A stretch of DNA of 64,000 nt from Actinomycetota bacterium. Its GTDB lineage: Bacteria > Actinomycetota > Acidimicrobiia > Acidimicrobiales > Microtrichaceae. The notes under the pieces are model-generated. The model saw only the letters and a list, made by a program, of their open reading frames with translations, ran no database searches and was not told the DNA's origin. The number at the start of each line of letters is the position of its first letter. The stretch's first letter is position 1. The translations under genes and the position numbers were made by a program. The stretch covers positions 62,001-126,000 of the forward strand of contig VGBZ01000003.1 of assembly GCA_016870275.1 (NCBI GenBank). The letters run 5' to 3'. Below are positions 21,125 to 48,310 of this stretch, in pieces.

Positions 21125-21397
21125 CCCTCCCCGCCACTCCCGGGCGGCGACCGACCGGACGGCGGGCCACCTCAGATCGCCCACAGACGCCGACTCGGAT
21201 CGTGGCTGCTCTGGCGGGCCGGTCCGGCACGGGGCGCCGACGCCCGCTACGCCGAGGTCGACCACCGGGACCTGGATCGGATCCACACGTTCCGCCTGTT
21301 CCCACCGGACGGCAGCGGCGACGGGGCAGGGCCGAGCGGGCGGCGCCACGAGCGGTTCCGGGCGTGGAAGGAGGACCTGCGTGACCACCACGCCTGA
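21125..21397 (+). pseudogene. start-less remnant of a small conserved-looking protein
   Basis: Between the secreted protein and sufC1 one frame stays open from a TAA at 21122 to TGA 21395-21397 and reads like a real protein: RRRLGSWLLWRAGPARGAD, then YAEVDHRDLDRIHTFRLFPP, then RFRAWKEDLRDHHA. It contains no ATG, GTG or TTG, so as it stands it cannot start normally. It resembles small actinobacterial proteins I recall only vaguely. It may be an N-terminally truncated gene or one using a rare start codon. Otherwise this 360-bp gap holds only the sufC1 operator. Confidence 0.45.
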
Positions 21398-21418
21398 TCC
21401 ACACACACGCCCGACGCT

Positions 21419-21444
21419 ATTTCCACTACCGCAGTAGGGGAAAT
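21419..21444 (+). promoter_or_regulatory. sufC1 operator, dyad ATTT-N3-CTAC-N4-GTAG-N3-AAAT
   Basis: The most symmetrical of three copies found before suf genes. The arms ATTT and CTAC face GTAG and AAAT, and the outer symmetry extends to CTATTTCC/GGAAATAG (21417-21446). A TAGGAT -10-like hexamer (21444-21449) begins at its right edge and lies 6 nt before the sufC1 ATG, implying a leaderless transcript repressed by whatever binds here. See the sufD and sufB copies. Confidence 0.7.
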
Positions 21445-21455
21445 AGGATGATCGA

Positions 21456-22232
21456 ATGCTGGACGCATCCGATCCCGTCCCAGTCTTCGAGGTGCAGTGC
21501 CTGCGCGCGGCGCCCGCCGAGGAGCCGGAGCGGGAGATCCTCCGGGGCGTCGACCTCCGGGTCCTGCCCGGCGAGGTCCACGCCGTCATGGGTCCGAACG
21601 GATCTGGCAAGTCCACCTTGGCCAACTCGCTCATGGGCTCACCGGAGTACGTCGTGACCGGCGGTTCGATCCGCTTCCGTGGCGAGGAGATCACTGCGTG
21701 GGGTCCCGACGAGCGGGGACGTGCAGGCATCTTCCTGGCGTTCCAGTATCCCCAAGAGGTCCCGGGTGTCCCAGTGCGACAGTTCCTCCGTCAGGCACTC
21801 TCGGAACGAAAGGGAATCGACCTGTCGGTACTTGAGATCCGGCTGGCCATCATGGAGTGGATGGAACGACTCGACATGGATCCCGCCTTCGCCGACCGCT
21901 TCCTCAACGACGGGTTCTCCGGCGGCGAGAAGAAACGCAACGAGATCCTCCAGATGGCGATCCTCGAGCCCGAGGTTGCCATCCTCGACGAAACCGACTC
22001 CGGCCTCGACATCGATGCGCTCCGAGTCGTCGCCGACGGCATCAACGCCGTACGAGCCGACCGTAGCGACCTCGGGGTGGTCGTGATCACCCACTACCAG
22101 CGGCTCCTCGAGTACCTCGAACCCGATGTGGTCCACGTGCTTGTCGACGGCCGAATCGTCGAGGACGGCGGCTCCGAACTCGCCCAACGGCTCGAGCGTG
22201 AGGGGTTCGATTCGTGGCGGCAGGCGTCGTGA
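21456..22232 (+). CDS. sufC: SufC1, Fe-S assembly ATPase
   Basis: 258 residues. ABC ATPase with Walker A GPNGSGKST, signature FSGGEKKRNE, Walker B VAILDETDSGLDIDAL and H-loop ITHYQRLL. The EKKRNE variant and ETDSGLD are SufC hallmarks. SufC drives SufB-SufD conformational change for Fe-S cluster assembly. It carries a longer N-terminus than the second SufC in this locus. Its TGA overlaps the sufS GTG. It is the first gene of a rightward sufC-sufS-sufU operon behind the shared operator. Confidence 0.92.
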   Translation: MLDASDPVPVFEVQCLRAAPAEEPEREILRGVDLRVLPGEVHAVMGPNGSGKSTLANSLMGSPEYVVTGGSIRFRGEEITAWGPDERGRAGIFLAFQYPQEVPGVPVRQFLRQALSERKGIDLSVLEIRLAIMEWMERLDMDPAFADRFLNDGFSGGEKKRNEILQMAILEPEVAILDETDSGLDIDALRVVADGINAVRADRSDLGVVVITHYQRLLEYLEPDVVHVLVDGRIVEDGGSELAQRLEREGFDSWRQAS

Positions 22233-23482
22233 GGCCCGTCGCCGACCTCGAACCACTCGACGCCGCCCGGATCAAGGCCGATTTCCCCATCCTCGCCCGT
22301 CCGGCCGGCGGGTCCCGGCTGGTGTTCCTCGACTCCGCCGCCTCCTCGCAGCGGCCGACCGCCGTAGGAGAGGCGATCGACCGCTACTACGCCGAGGACC
22401 ACGCCAACGTGCACCGCGCCGCCTATGCGCTCGCCGAGCGGGCGACCAATGCCATGGAATCCGGACGACGGCGCGTGGCGTCCTTCGTCGGCGGGTCCAG
22501 CGCTGAGGAGATCGTGTTCACCAAGAACGCCACGGAGTCGCTCAACCTGGTGGCCCGGTCGTGGGGTGCCGCCAACCTCCGCCCCGGAGATGTCGTCGTG
22601 CTCTCGCTGATGGAACACCACGCCAACATCGTTCCGTGGCTGCAACTCGCCGAGTCACACGGCGTCGAACTTCGCTGGCTCGGCCTCACCCCCGAGGGAC
22701 GACTGGATCTTTCGGGGATCGACGAGGCGCTCGACGGTGCCTCGTTGCTCAGCATCACAGGCATGTCGAACGTGCTCGGCACCGTCCCTCCCGTGGCCGA
22801 GCTCGCCGAGCGGGCACACGCCGCTGGAGCGCTCGTCTGCGTCGATGCCTGTCAATCAGCTCCGCACACGATCACACGGGTCGTCGATCTCGGTGCGGAC
22901 TTCCTCGCCTTCAGCGGACACAAGCTCTGCGGGCCGACCGGCGTCGGTGTGCTCTGGGCTCGCACCGAGCTGCTCGAATCAATGCCCCCGTTCCTCGGCG
23001 GTGGCGGCATGATCCTCGACGTCCGAACCGACGGCTTCACCCCGGCGGCAGTGCCGCACAAGTTCGAGGCCGGCACCCCACCGATAGCCGAGATCGTGGG
23101 GCTCGCAGCCGCCATCGACTACCTCGAGGACATCGGGCTCGACCGCATCGCCGCTCACGAGCACATGCTCACCGAGTACGCCCTCGAGACCCTCCCGGCC
23201 CGATTCGGTGACGATCTCACGATCTTCGGCCCCGCCAACGCCGAACATCGGGGCGGCATCGTGAGTTTTGCGTTCGCCGACATCCACCCCCACGACCTGT
23301 CTCAGGTACTCGACACCCACGGTGTGTGCGTCCGACCCGGGCACCATTGCGCCAAACCACTCATGCGGGTGCTCGGCGTGGGTGCAACGGCTCGCGCCTC
23401 GTGGTACCTCTACAACGACACCGATGACATCGACGCCCTCGCTGACGCCCTGGCCGACGCCCGGAGCTTCTTCGCCATCTGA
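22229..23482 (+). CDS. sufS: SufS, cysteine desulfurase
   Basis: 417 residues from GTG 22229, overlapping sufC1 by 4 bp; an in-frame GTG at 22214 would add five residues. It is a PLP fold-type I enzyme with PLP lysine K232 in SGHKLCGPTG and the catalytic cysteine C374 in RPGHHCAKPLM. DSAASSQRP at the N-terminus and NVHRAAYALAERAT are further SufS marks. It extracts sulfur from cysteine as a persulfide and hands it to SufU, whose gene follows 86 bp downstream. Confidence 0.93.
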   Translation: MRPVADLEPLDAARIKADFPILARPAGGSRLVFLDSAASSQRPTAVGEAIDRYYAEDHANVHRAAYALAERATNAMESGRRRVASFVGGSSAEEIVFTKNATESLNLVARSWGAANLRPGDVVVLSLMEHHANIVPWLQLAESHGVELRWLGLTPEGRLDLSGIDEALDGASLLSITGMSNVLGTVPPVAELAERAHAAGALVCVDACQSAPHTITRVVDLGADFLAFSGHKLCGPTGVGVLWARTELLESMPPFLGGGGMILDVRTDGFTPAAVPHKFEAGTPPIAEIVGLAAAIDYLEDIGLDRIAAHEHMLTEYALETLPARFGDDLTIFGPANAEHRGGIVSFAFADIHPHDLSQVLDTHGVCVRPGHHCAKPLMRVLGVGATARASWYLYNDTDDIDALADALADARSFFAI

Positions 23483-23568
23483 ACCGGATGGATCCACCGA
23501 TGGTCGGGCTTCCCCTCCGGGGCCACGATCTACCAAACTAACCAAGTCATTTCGACTGAACGAGAACC

Positions 23569-24075
23569 ATGTCAGGCCTCGAAGACCTCTACCGCGAGAT
23601 CATCCTCGACCACTATCGCAGCCCACGGAACCGAGGCGAGCTCCCCGTGCCGCCTGCGACCCGATCGGACGGGTTCAATCCCCTCTGCGGCGACGAAATC
23701 GTCGTCTACCTGCAACTCGACGACCCGTCCAAGGGGGACGATGCGTTGATCGATGACATCCGGATCGGCGGCCAAGGGTGCTCGATCTCACAGTCCTCAG
23801 CATCCATGATGTCCGCTGCGGTCAAGGGCCACACCGTCGCCGAGGCCCGGCACCTCACCAGAGCGTTCAAGGCGATGATGTCGATCCACGAGGGCGAGCT
23901 CGGCGGCGACGGCAGCGAGAGCGAACTGAGCGGCGACGACTCAGGCGACGTCGGGACCATCGCTCTCGGCGACCTCGATGCCCTCAAGGGAGTGGTCAAG
24001 TTTCCAGTTCGCATCAAGTGCGCCACGCTCGGGTGGAACACTCTTCTCCAGGGCTTCGACGAGACCGCCGACTGA
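23569..24075 (+). CDS. sufU: SufU, zinc-dependent sulfurtransferase
   Basis: 168 residues. The ligand set of SufU is complete: C40 and D42 in NPLCGDE, C71 in GQGCSIS and C151 in RIKCATLGW. In Gram-positive SUF systems SufU accepts persulfide sulfur from SufS via zinc-ligand exchange. An acidic, Ser/Gly-rich insertion (GGDGSESELSGDDSGD, 112-127) interrupts the region before the last cysteine; an insertion there is typical of SufU versus IscU, though this one is unusually acidic. Usual length is about 145-165. Confidence 0.92.
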   Translation: MSGLEDLYREIILDHYRSPRNRGELPVPPATRSDGFNPLCGDEIVVYLQLDDPSKGDDALIDDIRIGGQGCSISQSSASMMSAAVKGHTVAEARHLTRAFKAMMSIHEGELGGDGSESELSGDDSGDVGTIALGDLDALKGVVKFPVRIKCATLGWNTLLQGFDETAD

Positions 24076-24153
24076 GTCCCCGGCTCGGCGAACCGCCAGG
24101 GATCTCGAGGCAGCCGCGCTGGCACATTTCAAGCCGTTGGCCGGAGCTGGGCA

Positions 24154-24197
24154 TTGACGCTGTCACAGAGCTGTGCTTCAATCGAACACACGTTCGT
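24154..24197 (+). promoter_or_regulatory. promoter with LexA-type SOS box
   Basis: TTGACG (24154-24159) and TTCAAT (24177-24182) are spaced 17 bp. Overlapping the -10, TCGAAC-ACAC-GTTCGT (24182-24197) matches the actinobacterial LexA box TCGAAC-N4-GTTCGA with one mismatch. Mycobacterial 13E12-family HNH genes are known to be SOS-regulated, which fits the truncated 13E12-type gene downstream. Confidence 0.7.
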
Positions 24198-24200
24198 TCA

Positions 24201-24336
24201 CGGCGCCAGCCGCAACGACACGGCGCCAGCCGCAACGACACGGCGCCAGCCGCAACGACACGGCGCCAGCCGCAACGACACGGCGCCAGCCGCAACGACA
24301 CGGCGCCAGCCGCAACGACACGGCGCCAGCCGCAAC
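24201..24336. repeat. perfect 20-bp tandem repeat, 6.8 copies
   Basis: Six full copies and a 16-bp partial copy of cggcgccagccgcaacgaca, with no mismatches. The unit holds the palindrome GGCGCC. The period is not a multiple of three, and no copy carries a start codon in the frame of the following HNH gene. There are no spacers, so it is not CRISPR. It begins three bases after the LexA box. Confidence 0.95.
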
Positions 24337-24395
24337 ATCTCGCAGCCTCTGCTGCCCCAACCGCCGCCGTTTGCGACGATCTCGGAAGCTGCCCT

Positions 24396-25526
24396 GTGCG
24401 AGATCCCGAAGCATCACCGCCATCCACCGCTCAACAGTCAACCGGTGCGGCCGAGTCGAGCCACCGAACCAGCGCTGCGACTGCCGTCGGTGCGTCTGTC
24501 AGCGATTTCGCCGTGTGCGATGGGCGTATCACCTCCCACCATGCAGCCGTACTCGTCCGACTGGCCACGCCCAGGGTGTTCCGCATCGTCGCAGCGTGCC
24601 TCGATGAACTCACTGCGCTCGCCGACGGTGTGCGCTTCGAGCAATGGGTCCGTGAGGTGCAGGCTCTCGTTGCGGCCGCCGACCCGGATGGGGGTCACCA
24701 ACCCGAGAGCGCCTGCGACCGGGCCCGTCTCCGTCCAGGCCTCGGCGACACGCTCCACCTCGACGACACGTTCCATGGCGCCGCCGCCCAGCAGGTTCGG
24801 GCGGCAATCGACGAGGAGGTGGAGCGTCGCTTCCACCATCATCGCCAGCCCAACCAGGAGGAGCAGGGCCACTCAGTGCCGTCTCGGAGCGAGCTCACGG
24901 CTGAGTCGCTCGCCGAGTTGTTGCGGCGCGACACTGCGACGCAACCGCCCGCCAGAGCACCTGTCTCCGATGTGACGTTGGTGATTCGAGCCGGTGACCC
25001 ACTCGCTCCGGACGGTTCGCTCGGAGGTACGACCGTTGGAACCTCCCTCGACGGCGTCCGACTGCAGGACGGGACCGTTCGCGAGCTGCTCTGTGACGCC
25101 GTTCTCCATCCAGTGGTGGTGGACTCACTCGGGGTGCCGCTCGACCTGGGCCGCAGTATCCGGGCGTTCTCGCCCCAGCAGCGTCGGGCAGCGATCGCTC
25201 GGGATGGTGGCTGCGTTCATCCCGGTTGCGACGCTCCGCCCTCGTGGACGCACCTCCACCATCTCGACGAGGTGCGCCTTGGCGGAGCCACCGATGTCAA
25301 TCGGTCGGCGTGCCTGTGTCCGACACACCATGCGGTGTGGCACGCACCAGGCTGGCCGACCCGGTCACGTCCAGATGGGTACCTCGACATCACCACCCCA
25401 ACGGGTCAACGCCTCGTCAGCCAGCGTCACGGGCGGCCCCGCCCGGAACAAGGCGGCGGCCCCCGCCCGGTCAGTGACCGGCGAGGTCGTCCAGCCGACG
25501 GGCGAACTGCACATCGAGGTCGGTGA
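24396..25526 (+). pseudogene. 5'-truncated 13E12/DUF222-type HNH endonuclease
   Basis: From about 24480 the frame matches the latter part of DUF222/13E12 proteins (VCDGRITSHHAAVLVRLATP, REVQALVAAADPDGG) and ends with an intact HNH nuclease site: CVHPGC, then WTHLHHLDEVRLGGATD, then CLCPTHHAVWH. The N-terminal roughly 150 residues of the family are missing, and 20-bp repeats occupy their place after the SOS promoter. The first usable in-frame start is GTG 24396, which would give a 376-residue protein. It may still make a nuclease fragment. Its 3' end overlaps the convergent pterin dehydratase gene by 56 bp. Confidence 0.7.
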
Positions 25527-25764
25527 TTCCTCCAGCGTCGTGAGTCACGAGATCGACGACGACCGTGGCGTAGACGTTGGACCACTCGGGATGGTGGTCG
25601 ATCTTCTCGGCATAGGTCGCCGCCGAGGCCATGAACCCGAATGCACATCCGAAGTCGCCGAAGGTGAACACCTTGTGGAGCTTTCCGTCGATCACATTCC
25701 AGTCGTTGAGCGAGCCGAGGGCCGCTCGGAGCTGCGCCGAATCGAGCGGCTCTGGTCGCGCCAT
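25471..25764 (-). CDS. pterin-4a-carbinolamine dehydratase family protein
   Basis: 97 residues, the normal size. The active-site pattern EKIDHHPEW (H57, H58, P59) with H75 and D-AGGITDLD is intact. These enzymes dehydrate 4a-hydroxytetrahydropterin; in many bacteria without aromatic hydroxylases they act in other cofactor contexts. It is last in the leftward sufD-Rieske-sufC2 set, 9 bp after sufC2. No reason for pterin chemistry in this operon is visible. Confidence 0.88.
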   Translation of the reverse strand: MARPEPLDSAQLRAALGSLNDWNVIDGKLHKVFTFGDFGCAFGFMASAATYAEKIDHHPEWSNVYATVVVDLVTHDAGGITDLDVQFARRLDDLAGH

Positions 25765-25773
25765 TGGGCGAGC

Positions 25774-26505
25774 CTAGGCCACCCAGGCGGAGTAGCCCTG
25801 ACCCTCGAGCCGGTCGACCAGTTCCGGGCCACCACTCTCCAGGATCCGGCCGTGACCGAAGATGTGGACGGTGTCCGGGTGCAGCTCCTGCAGGAGCCGG
25901 CTGTAGTGGGTGATCGCCAGCACGCCGAGCGCTGCGGGTCCGGACGTGGCCGCCTCGAGCCGACGGGCCACGGCTCGGAGCGCGTCGACGTCGAGACCGG
26001 AGTCGAGCTCGTCGAGTATTGCGATGCGGGGCTGGAGCACGGCGAGCTGCAAGGTCTCGTTTCGCTTCTTCTCCCCTCCGGAGAGGTCCACGTTGAGGTC
26101 GCGCCCAGCAAAGGCCCGGTCGAATCCGATGACGTCAGCCTCGTCGCGCATCAGCTCCGGGACGAGCTCGGGGTCGCGGCCGGCGGCGGCGTAGGCGGCG
26201 GCGAGCACGTCGGCGAGCTGCACACCGGGGACCTCGGTCGGATACTGCGATGCGAGGAACAGGCCGGCCTGAGCCCGCTCCCACGTGGGGAGTCCGAGAA
26301 GGTCCACCCCGTCGAGGGTGGCTGTCCCACCCGTCACGTGGTAGCCGGTGCGGCCCATCAACACGTTCGACAGCGTCGACTTTCCCGAGCCGTTCGGGCC
26401 CATCAGTGCATGAACCTCGCCGGACCTCACCGTGAGCGTCACTCCGTTGAGGATCGGGGTCTCCCCCACTGTTGCATGCAGCTGGTCGATGACGAGTTCG
26501 CTCAC
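25774..26505 (-). CDS. sufC: SufC2, second Fe-S assembly ATPase
   Basis: 243 residues with Walker A GPNGSGKST, signature DLSGGEKKRNE, Walker B IAILDELDSGLDVDAL and H-loop ITHYSRLL. The N-terminus (SELVIDQLHATVGETPILNG) and length match ordinary SufC better than the other copy. Its ATG overlaps the TGA of the Rieske gene. Being in the sufD operon it is the likelier classical partner of SufD-SufB. The two SufC proteins differ throughout, so this is not a recent duplication. Confidence 0.92.
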   Translation of the reverse strand: MSELVIDQLHATVGETPILNGVTLTVRSGEVHALMGPNGSGKSTLSNVLMGRTGYHVTGGTATLDGVDLLGLPTWERAQAGLFLASQYPTEVPGVQLADVLAAAYAAAGRDPELVPELMRDEADVIGFDRAFAGRDLNVDLSGGEKKRNETLQLAVLQPRIAILDELDSGLDVDALRAVARRLEAATSGPAALGVLAITHYSRLLQELHPDTVHIFGHGRILESGGPELVDRLEGQGYSAWVA

Positions 26506-26828
26506 TGCGTTCCCTCGATCGAGACGATCACATCACCGTCGATGATTTCGACCTGGTAGGTCGGCACGGGTCGCAGTGCGGGGAGCGATTGTGGTTTCCC
26601 GGAACGAAGGTCGAACTCGCTCCCGTGCTTGGGGCACTCGAGCGTGCAGGCCCGCTCGTCGACGATCCCGCCGGCGAGCGACACGTCGGCGTGGCTACAC
26701 CGGTCCCCGATGGCGTAGACGTCGTCACCGATCCGTACGAGCGCCAGAACCACTCCGTCATCGAGCGCAAACCTTCGGGCGCCGCCATGGACGAGGTCGT
26801 CGAACGCACAAAGTCGCACGTTGTTCAT
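26502..26828 (-). CDS. Rieske-type [2Fe-2S] ferredoxin
   Basis: 108 residues with both Rieske ligand boxes: C44-x-H46 (CSHADVS) and C65-x2-H68 (CPKHGSEF). There is no transmembrane helix, so it is a soluble non-haem-oxygenase-type ferredoxin. Overlaps of 4 bp with sufD upstream and sufC2 downstream put it in the same operon. Rieske ferredoxins inside suf operons are common in actinobacteria; a role in electron supply or as a client protein is inferred. Confidence 0.92.
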   Translation of the reverse strand: MNNVRLCAFDDLVHGGARRFALDDGVVLALVRIGDDVYAIGDRCSHADVSLAGGIVDERACTLECPKHGSEFDLRSGKPQSLPALRPVPTYQVEIIDGDVIVSIEGTQ

Positions 26829-28045
26829 GTTCGATCTCCACTCATCAATTCTGCAAGCGTCGGTCGGATCGCCTCGGCGATTCCCGGAACCGGGCAGCGA
26901 TCGAGCACTTCGTCGAAGAACCCGGCGACGATCAGACGCTCAGCGACCTCGGTCGGCACACCACGGGTCTCGAGGTAGAAGCGTTGGTCGGCATCGACGG
27001 GACCGACGGTCGAGGCGTGGGCGCAACGTACGTCGTTGTTCTCGATCTCGAGGTTGGGCACCGACTCCGCCCAGGCGTCGTCGCTGAGGGTCATGATGCG
27101 GTTCGACTGCTCGGCGTTGGCGCCACGGGCGTCGGGGTGGATTCGAATGAGCCCGGTGTACACGGCGTGGGCCCGGCCGTCGACAGCGCCCTTGAACACC
27201 AGCTCGGACGTCGTGTCGCGGGCGAGGTGGTCCTGGAAGGTGCGAAGATCACGCATCTGGTCGCCACCACCGGCGTAGAGGCTGACGAGCCGGGCATCGG
27301 CGCCCCGGCCGAGGAGTTGGCAGTCCACACGGGTCCGGGCGTAGCGACCGCCGATCGCTGCGATCCACGTGTCGTAGGTGCCGGAGGCCTCCACTCGGGC
27401 GGTGACCGACCCGACCACATCGGAGCGGACCGATACGTCCTGGATCAACACGTGGCGCAGGGTTGCGTCACGTCCGACCTCGACCTCGGTGACCGGGACG
27501 ACGAGTGAATCCGAGGGCCCGGTGCTGCGGTGGACCTCCACCAGCGTCGCCTCGCTGTTCGCTCCGAGCTCGATGCGCATCCGGGGTGCGACGACCACGC
27601 CATCGGTGGTCACGACACTCGCTACGACGATGGGAGCGACGACTCGCGCCTGGGCGTCGACCGTGACCGTGACCTGAGCGGAGCAGAGCCGCTCGTTGAG
27701 AAGGGCGAAAGCGTTGGGAGATGCCTGCTCGGTCTGGACGGTCTGGACGGCATGGACGTCGATCCGTACGGGATCAGCGGCTTCCGCAGCACTGACGGAG
27801 CCGTCGACCACGACGACGGTGGCAGAAGGCGGTTGGGTCGATGCGCCGAGGAGGTCGTCGATGGTTGCTCGGGCGGTTGAGATCGATTCGAGGGCCGGCT
27901 CCACGGGCGCCCGGGCGAACCGGGTCGGGTCGATGTCGGCGACTCGGCTGTAGCGCCACTCCTCGGCGTCGGTCGTCGGGAGTTGGAGATCTGCGAGGTC
28001 CTCGGCGAGATGCCCGAACGGACCTGTCTCGACCGTCGTGCCCAC
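26825..28045 (-). CDS. sufD: SufD, Fe-S scaffold subunit
   Basis: 406 residues from GTG 28045. The N-terminal DAEEWRYSRVADID matches the SufD start. The C-terminal half has the beta-helix region QMRDLRTFQDHLARDTTSEL, then KGAVDGRAHAVYTGLIRI, AEQSNRIMTLSDDAWAESVP and CAHASTVGPVDADQRFYL, with the conserved Cys-His pair. SufD pairs with SufB and a SufC dimer. A TAAATT lying 7 nt before the GTG, just downstream of the shared operator, would give a leaderless message. Confidence 0.92.
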   Translation of the reverse strand: MGTTVETGPFGHLAEDLADLQLPTTDAEEWRYSRVADIDPTRFARAPVEPALESISTARATIDDLLGASTQPPSATVVVVDGSVSAAEAADPVRIDVHAVQTVQTEQASPNAFALLNERLCSAQVTVTVDAQARVVAPIVVASVVTTDGVVVAPRMRIELGANSEATLVEVHRSTGPSDSLVVPVTEVEVGRDATLRHVLIQDVSVRSDVVGSVTARVEASGTYDTWIAAIGGRYARTRVDCQLLGRGADARLVSLYAGGGDQMRDLRTFQDHLARDTTSELVFKGAVDGRAHAVYTGLIRIHPDARGANAEQSNRIMTLSDDAWAESVPNLEIENNDVRCAHASTVGPVDADQRFYLETRGVPTEVAERLIVAGFFDEVLDRCPVPGIAEAIRPTLAELMSGDRT

Positions 28046-28053
28046 GACGGGGA

Positions 28054-28079
28054 ATTTACCCTACGGGCGTAGGGATTAT
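28054..28079 (-). promoter_or_regulatory. sufD operator, ATTT-N3-CTAC-N4-GTAG
   Basis: Read on the plus strand this is ATTT, ACC, CTAC, GGGC, GTAG, GGA, TTAT. The inner CCCTAC/GTAGGG arms (28059-28064 and 28069-28074) are perfect. Spacing is identical to the copies before sufC1 and sufB. It overlaps the likely promoter of the sufD operon, whose GTG is 9 bp away. Confidence 0.7.
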
Positions 28080-28112
28080 TCAGTCGGCGTCGATCGGATC
28101 GGACGTTCCCTC

Positions 28113-28463
28113 TCAGTCCTTCGAGCCCGGGAGGAACCGCCGCCAGCCCCTGCGCTTCTTCTCCTCCGCTGCGAGTTCGCCCATGACCTTGGGGCCCGCA
28201 GCGTTGACGACGTCCTCTGCGGAGTCGAGGAGTGCCGCAATCGAGTCGTCCTCTCCAAGGCTCTCCGGTTCGGGCGGCGTGGGTGGCGTCACAAGGGTCC
28301 CGTGGGCCCAGTTGACGTCGGCGAGGCGAGGCTGGAACGCCTGGCAGTTCTCAGGGCACCGCCACGGCGCCTCCGGAGCCAGATCCAGGTCGCACTTCCT
28401 CACGGTGTCACCGTTCGGATAGGAGCGACTCTCGAAGAATTTGCAGTTCTCCTGCATGGGCAT
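28113..28463 (-). CDS. small four-cysteine protein of unknown function
   Basis: 116 residues starting MPMQENCKFFESRSYPNG. C7, C24, C36 and C40 (KCDLD and RCPENC) form a compact set able to bind a metal or Fe-S cluster. The rest is acidic, then a helix, then a basic tail (EEKKRRGWRRFLPG). I recall similar short proteins in actinobacteria without known function. It lies upstream of the sufD operon in the same direction, separated by the suf operator, so it has its own promoter or reads through. Confidence 0.7.
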   Translation of the reverse strand: MPMQENCKFFESRSYPNGDTVRKCDLDLAPEAPWRCPENCQAFQPRLADVNWAHGTLVTPPTPPEPESLGEDDSIAALLDSAEDVVNAAGPKVMGELAAEEKKRRGWRRFLPGSKD

Positions 28464-28580
28464 GGTGCCATTGTGGCCTACGTCGGAACGACACCTCGCT
28501 CAGGTGGGGTCTGCTGGCCGGGAACTTTGACCCAGTGCCGGCGACTCAACAGGGGTACCGACCGGGCCGATGCTGAACGG

Positions 28581-29492
28581 GTGAACACAGTCGTACCTCG
28601 GATCCTGCTCGATGCCGCCGATGTGCCCGCGTGCACGCTCAATCCGGACGGGGTGATCACCTCGCTCAACCCGGCGTTCTCACGGCTCTGCGGGCGAGGC
28701 ACCGGTGAGCTCGTCGGATCGCACGCCACGTCGCTGTGCATCGAGTCCGATCAGGCAGAGGTGCTGACCGGCCTGATCAGCCTCCTCGGCCGTCACGCCG
28801 AACTCGCTCACGTGGAGGTGCGCCTCTGTTCGGTCAGCGGCACGAGTCGACGGGTGCGCCTCACGATGGCCGCCGAACCGGTCATCTCCGATCACCATGC
28901 CACCGACACGCCGGAACGGGTCACGTCGATCGCCGTCGTCGGTCGGGACCTCACCGCTGACCGGCGACGGAACCCCCCTGTGGCGCCCGACTCCACACCG
29001 GACCGGGGAACCCAGCCGTCCGGCGCCGCTGTCAGTCCGGATCTCGCACTGACGGTCGAGGCCGCACGCACTGCGACGCTCGAAACCGGTCGTCCGTACG
29101 CCGTGATCGAACTCGCAATGACCGGACCGGCGCTCGAACCCGCCGACCTGCGGCTCGCAGCGGCGACGATCGTCGATCGAATGCGTCAGCAACTCCGCTC
29201 CCACGACACGATCGTCCGTCACCACCAAGGGGTCTGCACCGTGGTGGCGACCGACCTCGGCGATGCCCAGGACGCCGCCGGTGTCTGTTACCGCCTCCTG
29301 TCGACCACGATGGAACCGGTCGTGCTCCGGGGTGAACCCGTCGACCTCAAGCTGGCCGCCGGGATCGCCATCGACGACGGTACGAGCGACCCGGACGACG
29401 TCGTGTCAACAGCACGCAGCCTGGAGACCATTGCACTCAGCGATGGTGGTGGGTTCCGCATTCGGGCCCTCGGCGCGCTCGCCCAGGCCTGA
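28581..29492 (+). CDS. PAS protein with a degenerate GGDEF-like domain
   Basis: 303 residues from GTG 28581. Residues about 10-130 form a PAS domain (ACTLNPDGVITSLNPAFSRL, GRGTGELVGSH). The C-terminal 160 residues have the length and strand pattern of a GGDEF domain, but where GGDEF should stand the sequence reads RHHQGVC, so cyclic di-GMP synthesis is not expected. It could sense a ligand or act as a regulatory partner. It is embedded, on the opposite strand, between sufD and sufB. Confidence 0.6.
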   Translation: MNTVVPRILLDAADVPACTLNPDGVITSLNPAFSRLCGRGTGELVGSHATSLCIESDQAEVLTGLISLLGRHAELAHVEVRLCSVSGTSRRVRLTMAAEPVISDHHATDTPERVTSIAVVGRDLTADRRRNPPVAPDSTPDRGTQPSGAAVSPDLALTVEAARTATLETGRPYAVIELAMTGPALEPADLRLAAATIVDRMRQQLRSHDTIVRHHQGVCTVVATDLGDAQDAAGVCYRLLSTTMEPVVLRGEPVDLKLAAGIAIDDGTSDPDDVVSTARSLETIALSDGGGFRIRALGALAQA

Positions 29493-29509
29493 GCCTCCGC
29501 AGCGGGGGA

Positions 29510-30904
29510 TCAGCCGACGCTGCCCTCCATCTGGAGTTCGATGAGCCGGCTCCACTCGACTGCGTACTCCATGGGCAGGGTCCGTGTGATCGGCTCGATG
29601 AAGCCATTGACGACCATGGACATGGCTCGCTCCTCGGACAGTCCCCGGCTCATGAGGTAGTAGAGCTGCTCGTCGGCGATCTTGGATACGCTCGCCTCGT
29701 GACCGACCACCGCGTCACGTGAACCGACCTCGGTGTAGGGGTAGGTATCGGACACGGAGTCCTCGTCGAGGATGAGTGCGTCGCACTGCACGTGGCTGAC
29801 GCAGTTGGCGGCGTCATCCTCGACCCGCACCAATCCCCGGTAGGACGTGCGCCCACCACCGGAGGAGATCGACTTGGATACGACCTTGGATGTGGTTTCC
29901 GGCGCAGCGTGGATCATCTTGGCTCCGGTGTCCTGGTGCTGGCCTGCACCGGCGTAGGCGACCGAGAGCACCTCGCCCGACGCCTTGGGGCCGACCATGA
30001 CCACGCTGGGGTATTTCATGGTGAGGCGACTTCCGATGTTGCCGTCGATCCACTCCATGTGACCCTCGGCCTCCACGACCGCTCGCTTGGTCACCAGATT
30101 GAAGACGTTCGACGACCAGTTCTGGATGGTCGTGTAGGTCACCCTGGCCGACGGCTTGACGACGATCTCGACCACAGCGGAGTGCAACGAGTCCGAGGTG
30201 TACACGGGAGCGGAACAGCCCTCGATGTAGTGCACCCGAGAACCCTCGTCGGCAATGATCAGTGTCCGCTCGAACTGGCCCATGTTCTCGGCGTTGATCC
30301 GGAAGTAGGCCTGCAGCGGCATCTCGACCTCCACTCCGGGGGGCACGTAGATGAACGAACCACCCGACCACACTGCGGAGTTGAGCGACGAGAACTTGTT
30401 GTCATTGCGCGGGATCACGGTGCCGAAGTACTGCTTGACGATCTCGGGATACTCCCGCAGAGCGGTGTCCATGTCGCAGAACACCACGCCCTGACGCTCG
30501 AGATCCTCACGGTTGCGGTGGAACACCACCTCGGACTCGTACTGGGCGGTTACGCCGGCGAGGTACTTGCGCTCGGCCTCTGGGATCCCGAGCTTCTCGT
30601 AGGTGTTCTTGATGGCCTCAGGCAGGTCGTCCCAGTCCTCGACCTGCCCCTCAGTGGGCTTGATGTAGTAGTAGATGTCGTCGAAGTAGATCTCCGACGT
30701 GTCACCGCCCCAGTTGGGCATGGGACGCCGGTCGAAGGCGCGGAGGCTCTTCAGTCGGAAGTCGAGCATCCAGTCGGGTTCGCCCTTCATCCAGGACATC
30801 TCCCGGACGATCGCCTCGTCGAGACCCTTCTTGGGCTTGAAGACGTAGTCCTCTGCGTCGCTCCAGCCGAGCGAGTACTTGGACAGGTCGAGATCGACCG
30901 ACAT
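29510..30904 (-). CDS. sufB: SufB, Fe-S scaffold subunit
   Basis: 464 residues, the family's usual length. Landmarks are [67 protein letters not shown] and the conserved C-terminal cysteine in [13 protein letters not shown]. SufB is the main assembly scaffold, acting with SufD and SufC. GGAGG seven bases before the ATG is a strong ribosome site. It stands alone on its transcript, about 1.05 kb from the nearest leftward gene (28463), while most bacteria keep sufB directly before sufD. Confidence 0.95.
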
Positions 30905-30927
30905 GTGGGCTCCTCCGGAGGACGGGG

Positions 30928-30953
30928 ATTTCTCCTACTCCGATAGTAACAAC
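30928..30953 (-). promoter_or_regulatory. sufB operator, ATTT-N3-CTAC-N4-ATAG
   Basis: Plus-strand reading: ATTT, CTC, CTAC, TCCG, ATAG, TAA, CAAC. The left half matches the other two suf sites exactly and the right half is degenerate (ATAG for GTAG). It lies 24-49 bp upstream of the sufB ATG, in the divergent gap shared with the DUF2752 gene. Confidence 0.6.
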
Positions 30954-30970
30954 CTCCCCGTCCTGACGAC

Positions 30971-31450
30971 ATGCCACGTCGGCCCTACAGTGATGCCGTG
31001 CAGACGCACGGCCACCCCGTCCAACGCAGTTGGCTCGGCCCCGCGGTGGCCATCGGATCGGTGGCGGTCGGCTCGGCGCTGATCGCCGCATGGAACCCGG
31101 GCGACACGGGCCAACCGCTGTGCACCTCGCAGATGGCGTTCGGGGTCGACTGCCCCTTCTGCGGCGGCATGCGTTGTGTGAACTCCCTCGTCCGGGGCGA
31201 TGTCCTCGCTGCGGCAGATCACAACGTCCTGCTCGCTGTGGCACTTCCCCTGGTAGCGATCGGTCTCGCGGTGTGGTTGTGGCGCTCGATGCACGGCCAG
31301 ACGACGCCGGTGCCGTGGCCCACCGACCGACGAAGATCGATGCTGCTCGGAGCGGCGATCGTGGTGGGCCTCGTGGTGTTCACCGTTCTCCGCAACGTCG
31401 GCGGACCGCCCTGGGTCGAGTGGCTCCACTCGACGTCCTACCTGGGCTGA
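30971..31450 (+). CDS. DUF2752 membrane protein
   Basis: 159 residues from ATG 30971; an in-frame GTG at 30998 would trim nine. Three hydrophobic segments are visible (GPAVAIGSVAVGSALIAAW, NVLLAVALPLVAIGLAVWLW, LLGAAIVVGLVVFTVLRNV). The DUF2752 signature CPFCGGMR with an upstream Cys lies between the first two. Function is unknown for the family; the CxxC suggests thiol or metal chemistry. It is divergent from sufB and could share its control region. Confidence 0.8.
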   Translation: MPRRPYSDAVQTHGHPVQRSWLGPAVAIGSVAVGSALIAAWNPGDTGQPLCTSQMAFGVDCPFCGGMRCVNSLVRGDVLAAADHNVLLAVALPLVAIGLAVWLWRSMHGQTTPVPWPTDRRRSMLLGAAIVVGLVVFTVLRNVGGPPWVEWLHSTSYLG

Positions 31451-47967: not shown

Positions 47968-48031
47968 CGCCGCAGAAACTAACGCAGGAAGATGAATTCC
48001 TGACTGCACTGTGCCGATCTATCCTGTCGAC

Positions 48032-48310
48032 GTGCTATCGCACTGGACGTTCCTGACCAACCACACACACGTCCTCGTCCTGTTGGATCAGAATCCGGAC
48101 CTCCGGATCAGGGAGCTGGCAACAGAGGTGGGGATCACCGAACGGGCGACCCAGCGGATCCTCGGAGATCTTGTCAAGAGCGGGTACGTCAACCGGTACC
48201 GAACCGGTCGGCGGAACTCCTACTCCCTCAACAGGGACCTACCGCTCCGACACCCGCTCGAGTCACACCGTAGCGTGGGCGCTCTTCTCGACGCCCTCGA
48301 GTCCGACTGA
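48032..48310 (+). CDS. winged-helix transcriptional regulator
   Basis: 92 residues from GTG 48032 (GTG 48011 would add seven). The core VLVLLDQNPDLRIRELATEVGITERATQRILGDLVKSGYVNRYRTGRRNSYSLN is a MarR/ArsR-like helix-turn-helix with a wing; it is quoted only by its ends here: VLVLLDQNPD to RRNSYSLN. No ligand domain is present. Divergent placement beside the P-type ATPase suggests control of that gene, which is inference. Confidence 0.82.
   Translation: MLSHWTFLTNHTHVLVLLDQNPDLRIRELATEVGITERATQRILGDLVKSGYVNRYRTGRRNSYSLNRDLPLRHPLESHRSVGALLDALESD

Follow-up and report, generated by a model that had tools for sequence, protein, structure and literature searches.

A palindromic element shared by three suf transcription units, a predicted Fe-S operator recurring across Acidimicrobiia with a SufR-like protein as its candidate reader

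The stretch of DNA analysed here (hereafter the window) comprises 64,000 nucleotides from a member of the Microtrichaceae (Actinomycetota, class Acidimicrobiia; contig VGBZ01000003.1, positions 62,001 to 126,000), whose genome (G000) is available as a 3.20 Mb draft of 137 contigs that is 96.3% complete. It carries a scattered set of suf genes for iron-sulfur (Fe-S) cluster assembly, and the same dyad, a predicted operator, was observed in front of each of three suf transcription units. The first unit, on the plus strand, consists of sufC1, encoding the Fe-S assembly ATPase (21456-22232; TIGR01978, 310.7 bits, cut-off 212.8), sufS, encoding a cysteine desulfurase (22214-23482; Aminotran_5, 441.3 bits), and sufU, encoding a NifU_N-type scaffold or sulfur acceptor (23569-24075; NifU_N, 67.5 bits). 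The second, on the minus strand, is composed of sufD (26825-28045; TIGR01981, 227.4 bits, cut-off 222), a second sufC gene, sufC2 (25774-26505; TIGR01978, 265.7 bits, cut-off 212.8), and, between them, a gene for a Rieske-type ferredoxin (26502-26828; Rieske, 56.6 bits). The third is sufB, also on the minus strand (29510-30904; TIGR01980, 707.1 bits, cut-off 346.4). The NCBIfam equivalog cut-offs were passed by sufC1, sufC2, sufB, and sufD, and the Pfam matches were clear for sufS, sufU, and the Rieske ferredoxin.

Operator 1 (21419-21444; no strand assigned), before sufC1-sufS-sufU, reads ATTTCCACTACCGCAGTAGGGGAAAT and is a full match to a wider palindrome that recurs in the class sample, ATTTNCNCTAY-N4-RTAGNGNAAAT (ATTTNCNCTAYNNNNRTAGNGNAAAT). 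It is followed by the -10-like hexamer TAGGAT (21444-21449, plus strand), located 6 nt before the sufC1 ATG (21456) and assigned from the sequence and from the same arrangement in the palindromes of the family. Operator 2 (28054-28079, minus strand), before sufD, has two mismatches to the palindrome and a perfect inner CCCTAC-N4-GTAGGG; a hexamer, TAAATT (28053-28058, minus strand), stands at its end, and the GTG start of sufD (28045) follows after 7 nt. Operator 3 (30928-30953, minus strand), before sufB, reads GTTGTTACTATCGGAGTAGGAGAAAT on the coding strand and contains the hexamer TACTAT (30943-30948, minus strand), which is conserved in the sufB loci of the family; both minus-strand hexamers were picked out from the letters of the window. 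As sufD and sufB lie on the minus strand, the plus-strand ATTT end is the gene-proximal end for both. The sufB site is a one-sided version of the palindrome, its gene-distal arm having diverged.

An earlier note on this DNA had claimed three copies of ATTT-N3-CTAC-N4-RTAG with identical spacing, the one before sufC1 being a near-perfect palindrome. Both claims agreed with our scan of the window, in which the pattern was located without mismatch at 21419-21437, 28054-28072, and 30928-30946; an extra opposite-strand match at 21426-21444, present because the sufC1 site is palindromic, gave four strand matches at three places. The exact pattern was absent from 100 dinucleotide shuffles of the window (mean 0.00, largest count 0). 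With up to two mismatches allowed, five matches were obtained versus 0.29 expected, and all five lay within the three sites. A scan of the whole draft genome, which the note had asked for, recovered the exact pattern only at the three suf places, and no match was obtained with the reversed pattern, which served as the control in the genome, family, and class scans; the pattern is thus not common in the genome. When the wider palindrome was searched in the same genome at up to three mismatches, nothing besides the sufC1 and sufD sites was found, which places the sufB site at more than three. The nfuA-like genes were rejected as members of the regulon in this genome, since nothing beyond suf has a site with three mismatches or fewer. 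A looser core, CCTAC-N4-GTAGG with one mismatch, was uninformative, with 26 places per strand in the genome versus 128 for the reversed control.

The position of the palindrome relative to promoters was compared in 16 sufC/sufS loci of the family, two of which had no site at one mismatch, leaving 14 palindromes. A TANNNT hexamer adjoined the palindrome on one side in all 14 and on the other side in none, and the start codon was located 6-7 nt after the hexamer in 12 of them. The palindrome measures 26 bp, and 30 bp in several sufC/sufS promoters, where it extends up to CTATTT...AAATAG. No promoter was found in 21300-31100 by an Escherichia coli-type sigma-70 consensus scan, so the promoter assignment rests on the comparative -10-like hexamers. 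The proposal that the sites stand at likely promoters is therefore borne out by these hexamers and not by the consensus scan; the two of the three genes that look leaderless are sufC1 and sufD, whereas sufB has a leader that includes a ribosome site of GGAGG type. The operator overlaps or adjoins the -10, in a register that varies among promoters, as expected of a steric repressor, and repression by operator occupancy appears likely from this arrangement. The occurrence of -10-like hexamers in or next to the site in the promoters examined would also suit a promoter element only, used for example by a special sigma factor, with no repressor involved. We consider this extremely improbable given the two-fold symmetry over 26-30 bp, the varying position of the hexamer relative to the dyad among the sufC/sufS, sufR, and sufB promoters, and the conservation of both arms although the hexamer is on one side only.

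In the window's family (f1; 33 genomes), the half-site pattern CTAY-N4-RTAGNRDAAAT (CTAYNNNNRTAGNRDAAAT) was present exactly in 28 genomes, and in 31 at up to one mismatch. The reversed control gave zero matches in 22 genomes and 0-10 per strand in the other 11, with the highest counts in genus g6, so that the one-mismatch matches in these 11 genomes are partly noise. In 18 family genomes, the coordinates placed an exact match no more than about 120 bp ahead of sufB. Alignment of 18 family sufB loci gave GTTGTTACTATC-N4-TAGGAGAAAT on the coding strand, with TTGTTACTAT kept in all 18 and column identity averaging 0.88 across the site versus 0.60 and 0.50 in the flanks; the gene-proximal arm was degenerate in two of these loci (G013 and G018). 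Five genomes (G006, G017, G020, G021, and G025) have an alternative SufB (about 45% identity), yet carry the palindrome before sufS. The palindrome was also observed before a NifU-domain gene in G028 and before homologues of this gene in G003 and G004 (55-59% identity).

Across the class (247 genomes), the palindrome was found at up to two mismatches in 145 genomes, including 110 of the 175 high-quality ones, and in 96 of the 124 genera. The reversed control was non-zero in 13 genomes, 12 of them in the small-genome families f27 and f30. At one mismatch, 11 of the 396 genomes of the phylum sample matched, all within the class. We fetched 30 loci through the class palindrome search, all from the window's order; as checked by tblastn, every one of them has a suf, mrp/erpA, or sufR-like gene whose start is 220 bp or less from the site. 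The motif is thus conserved ahead of suf genes in relatives, in the family and in the class, and we regard the dyad as the predicted operator of an Fe-S regulon that recurs across the class.

Some further observations were made on the SUF systems of the family. Two kinds occur in f1, one with the native SufB (85-97% identity) and one with the alternative SufB (about 45%), and G023 has both. Near several of the alternative systems, we observed SufR-like genes of another clade. In addition, a palindrome stands just upstream of a gene that, by eye, resembles a sigma-70 gene (L086:2634-2659, on contig 63 of G001).

The most likely reader of the operator is a SufR-like winged-helix protein that is encoded outside the window and predicted to bind the dyad. 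Its gene was found because, in two of the 30 order loci (L145 and L146), the site stands directly before its orthologues, winged-helix genes divergent from mrp. In the window genome, it lies on contig 1 (151081-151782; 234 aa), between an iscS/nifS-like gene for a cysteine desulfurase and a divergent gene of mrp/apbC type. Further sites of the class were located immediately ahead of this gene, among others in G067, G144, G152, G111, G071, G259, and G264, and, outside the order, in G035, G153, and G042. Among its 30 best orthologues, all from the window's order, the upstream region contained a site with up to four mismatches in 15 and with up to three in 14; simulated versions of these regions reached four mismatches or fewer in 1 of 1200. 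Among named records, of which we examined the best 80 of 562 relatives, many of them near-copies of one another, the site was present before the gene at 51 loci. Its last six bases were TAGAAT, TACAAT, or TATAAT in 49 of these 51, and the start codon followed 5-7 nt after the site in all 51, which indicates that the site covers the apparent -10 of sufR. The complete named genome of Aquihabitans sp. G128 likewise has a SufR-like regulator, with a two-mismatch site before it.

The nearest records to the protein share 86-94% identity with it, and records from Microthrixaceae metagenome-assembled genomes share 69-77%. Its N-terminal half contains Pfam HTH_20 (35.4 bits, cut-off 27), indicating an ArsR-type winged helix, and its predicted structure, of middling confidence (predicted local distance difference test score 78.7, predicted template modelling score 0.53), matched the ArsR-type structures 2p4w and 6j05 in Foldseek (E 5e-4 to 1e-3). 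The C-terminal half gave a weak match to MetOD1, and the structure model also matched TRAPPC3/BcsD structures; a sequence search of the Protein Data Bank with the profile of the protein was uninformative (best E 0.037). Three cysteines, C182, C195, and C228, were invariant in the 30 orthologues and in the 25 rows of the alignment. In a tree of 52 sequences, to be read with caution because of its midpoint root and long inner branches, the SufR-like proteins formed a clade (98/92 support) apart from a second paralogue on contig 4 and from the SufR-like genes accompanying alternative sufB genes.

The presence of this protein also followed that of the site. In the family, 25 genomes had both, 3 the site only, 1 the protein only, and 4 neither (Fisher p = 0.004). 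The corresponding counts in the class, for a site with up to two mismatches and a protein limit of E 1e-25, were 135, 10, 38, and 64 (p = 9e-22), and, once the 42 genomes of f27 had been set aside because no SufR match occurs in them, 135, 6, 38, and 26 (p = 2e-10); incomplete genomes blur these counts. Moreover, G024, which is 95% complete, well assembled, and without a site, contained only relatives of 31-34% identity.

Several observations weigh against the SufR-like protein as the reader. The Fisher values overstate independence because the genomes share ancestry, and the 80 named loci include many near-copies. In the window's family, the SufR-like gene lacks such a site (none at 26 loci by tblastn, best 6-10 mismatches), and so does the locus of the orthologue in family f32 (G045; 40% identical to the protein of the window genome; best 6 mismatches). 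Three family genomes, G003, G016, and G031 (78, 76, and 92% complete, respectively), have sites and no detected orthologue; in the class, a site occurs without a protein match at E 1e-25 in 10 genomes, and the protein without a site at two mismatches in 38. A divergent mrp lies behind the site in 47 of the 51 site-bearing named loci, so the site may serve mrp, which may be a co-target or even the main target of the sufR-side site. Finally, in G067, the gene divergent to sufC across the site is Rrf2-like and not sufR.

This last arrangement would fit a regulator of the Rrf2/IscR type, such as L005 (contig 62) or L006 (contig 82) of the window genome. The Rrf2 domain is good in both (L005, 135 bits, and 123 bits for rrf2_super; L006, 84 bits), L006 has three cysteines spaced like those of IscR, and the palindrome, with its length of 26 bp and its CC/GG arms, is similar to Rrf2 sites. 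The ligands of the IscR cluster follow the pattern C-x5-C-x5-C-x2-H; L005 has only CDHEGQC, with no histidine three residues after, and does not show this pattern. Each of the five family genomes that lack an exact site contains an L005-type protein, and three genomes with sites do not (25 with both, 3 with the site only, 5 with the protein only, and 0 with neither; p = 1), and G003 and G004 have sites and no L005-type protein. None of the 30 L005-type upstream regions held a site (best 7-9 mismatches), nor did the L006 locus (best 8 mismatches). The L005 type was rejected on its co-occurrence and its upstream regions, and we regard an Rrf2-type reader in general as unlikely.

The contig 4 paralogue (L217) shares its architecture and its kind of C-terminal cysteines with the contig 1 protein and likewise has an mrp gene, the second of the genome, as divergent neighbour; moreover, relatives at 27-36% identity to the query occur in most family genomes. 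The site was absent from all 16 loci fetched for this paralogue (14 of them in its clade), where the best matches had 6-8 mismatches, and the paralogue was rejected on this count. It forms a separate clade in the tree, and a member of this clade was also found in G015, which has no exact site (75% complete). A role as the reader thus seems very unlikely for it.

A wider set of targets was observed in family f32. In the five genomes examined (5 of 6 places in G045, 7 of 7 in G074, 6 of 6 in G223, 3 of 6 in G118, and 3 of 5 in G098), 22 of the 24 sites adjoined iron or Fe-S genes, the two outside this tally (L279 and L280) both being in G223. The Fe-S targets were sufB, sufC, sufD, and mrp/erpA. 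The iron targets were imelysin, ferritin, a Peripla_BP_2 protein divergent from a siderophore-interacting protein, and extracellular binding proteins, which we read as Fe3+-type and to which Pfam assigns SBP_bac families only. One site was examined beyond f32 (L287, G247, family f29; 1 of 4 places), with no neighbour assignment. As a separate observation, the sufB of G074 is apparently split, judged by eye, by an intein-like insert after ...VTAQYE (L269:3-1442).

The iron-uptake and ferritin genes that follow the site in f32 could point to an iron-sensing reader of the DtxR/IdeR or Fur type. Several of the iron-uptake sites there carry a separate, different box beside the operator, which suggests that another regulator with its own box acts at these promoters. 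The second box was TTAGGTGAACCTAA, exact in L271 and with one mismatch in L273, or GTTAGGTACCTAAC-like, in L233, L270, L281, and L284; boxes of the GTTAGGTACCTAAC-like or TTAGGTNNNCCTAA-like kind hint at dual control of iron uptake. IdeR-like boxes, exact or with one mismatch, were found in 2 of 25 f32 loci, and likewise in 19 of 2000 windows drawn at random from these loci, some of which perhaps overlap the same boxes. Moreover, the targets in the 30 order loci are Fe-S genes, and we consider an iron-sensing reader highly improbable. It is an evenly balanced proposition that the SufR-like clade, with its new operator, is the Fe-S regulator of the Acidimicrobiia-type class and acts in f32 as a general regulator of iron and Fe-S homeostasis that joins uptake, storage, and assembly. 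If true, the f32 regulator would do the job that is done elsewhere by RirA, IscR, or Fur.

Taken with the conservation, position, and targets of the operator, its association with the SufR-like gene leads us to put at roughly three in four the probability that the dyad is a class-wide Fe-S operator read by the contig 1 SufR-like protein, acting as a putative repressor of all three suf units. A dimer of this protein, with its winged helix and C-terminal cysteine domain, would bind the palindrome of 26 bp (30 bp in several promoters) and cover the -10, or the region from -35 to -10, of the sufC1-sufS-sufU, sufD-rieske-sufC2, and sufB units. In an Fe-S-replete cell, a cluster on the three conserved cysteines would allow binding and keep all three units off, much as SufR represses suf when loaded with a [4Fe-4S] cluster; loss of the cluster through iron starvation, oxidation, or nitric oxide, as for known SufR proteins, would release the repressor and turn the units on together. 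We infer the direct binding, the dimer, the cluster sensing, and the sign of regulation from these comparisons. The earlier note had envisaged that the scattered suf units answer to a single repressor of Rrf2 or ArsR type, the gene of which is not in the window. A shared, conserved operator and a supported candidate regulator, located on contig 1, now favour this idea, the term repressor being deduced from the operator position. Of the two types, the results favour an ArsR/SufR-like protein over the Rrf2 type that was tested (L005).

Other features of the window were also observed. Between sufD and sufB lies a gene for a cysteine-rich 116-aa protein (28113-28463) with no Pfam match, which also occurs beside sufD in L090 and L095; it is possibly an unknown member of the suf locus. 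It is followed by an open reading frame (ORF) resembling, by eye, a PAS/GGDEF-type sensory protein (28581-29492), and a similar ORF occupies the same place in L095. Downstream of sufU (3'), ahead of an ORF read as HNH-type, we found a perfect 20-bp tandem repeat of 6.9 copies (24199-24336; CACGGCGCCAGCCGCAACGA). A small helix-turn-helix protein (48011-48310), encoded beside a P-type ATPase-like ORF, matched Rrf2 weakly, at 23.9 bits (cut-off 30).

In the available portions of the descriptions of SufR from Synechocystis, Streptomyces avermitilis, Corynebacterium glutamicum, and Mycobacterium tuberculosis (Rv1460), the protein is, like the candidate reader, a winged-helix protein with C-terminal cysteines starting C-x12-C (PMC8593673, PMC11995493, PMC6034842). 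According to the same portions, an operator over the -10, suf targets, and autoregulation, here in part of the order, are also shared. The operators differ: for cyanobacteria and S. avermitilis, the accessible text of PMC8593673 and PMC11995493 gives CAAC-N6-GTTG as the SufR operator, and for C. glutamicum a sequence close to it, whereas the one described here is a longer palindrome with a CTAY-N4-RTAG core. CAAC-N6-GTTG with 0-1 mismatch had 29 matches in the window, none of which overlapped the three operators, in keeping with the claim that the motif is unlike a described SufR site. Our literature search, the coverage of which excluded most subscription papers, found no paper joining Acidimicrobiia and SufR and none that describes this operator or this clade of regulators. 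Rv1460 depends for its function on the cysteines C203, C216, and C244, as far as the portion available of PMC6034842 describes it; the third cysteine of the candidate reader is at x32 (C195 to C228) and not at x27, longer by five. In the SufR accounts available in part, the cluster motif is C-X12-C-X13-C-X14-C, and SufR is dedicated to the suf locus. The full motif does not apply here, there being no conserved cysteine 14 residues after C195. The curated SufR_cyano model TIGR02702 (cut-off 178.8) was not reached by the G000 protein (21.1 bits), by that of L146 (30.4 bits), or by three SufR-like proteins whose genes are some 8 kb or less from alternative sufB genes (19-24 bits), and we therefore name the protein SufR-like only. 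Moreover, and unlike SufR, its gene adjoins mrp and an iscS-like gene and not suf, and f32 adds iron uptake and ferritin to the targets of a regulator that the partly available accounts describe as suf-dedicated.

RisR of Myxococcus xanthus belongs to the Rrf2 family, and IscR and RirA differ from the candidate reader in protein family and from the dyad in operator. Like the SufR-like protein as predicted here, RisR is described, in the part of the source available, as a single holo-repressor that acts on more than one operon for Fe-S assembly by way of a palindrome over the -10; it differs by its operator core, GAC-N7-GTC (PMC9973013). IscR and RirA resemble the regulator suggested here for f32 in that iron genes and Fe-S assembly are controlled together, which is illustrated by the IscR regulon of Caulobacter in the accessible portion of PMC11475020. 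Overall, the system is best described as a putative SufR-like regulon with a new operator, which also differs from SufR in its gene neighbourhood, its scattered targets, and the iron genes of f32. It provides a concrete operator, a candidate regulator, and a target list for a class of environmental Actinobacteriota, and it suggests a route by which an Fe-S assembly repressor may widen into an iron regulator.

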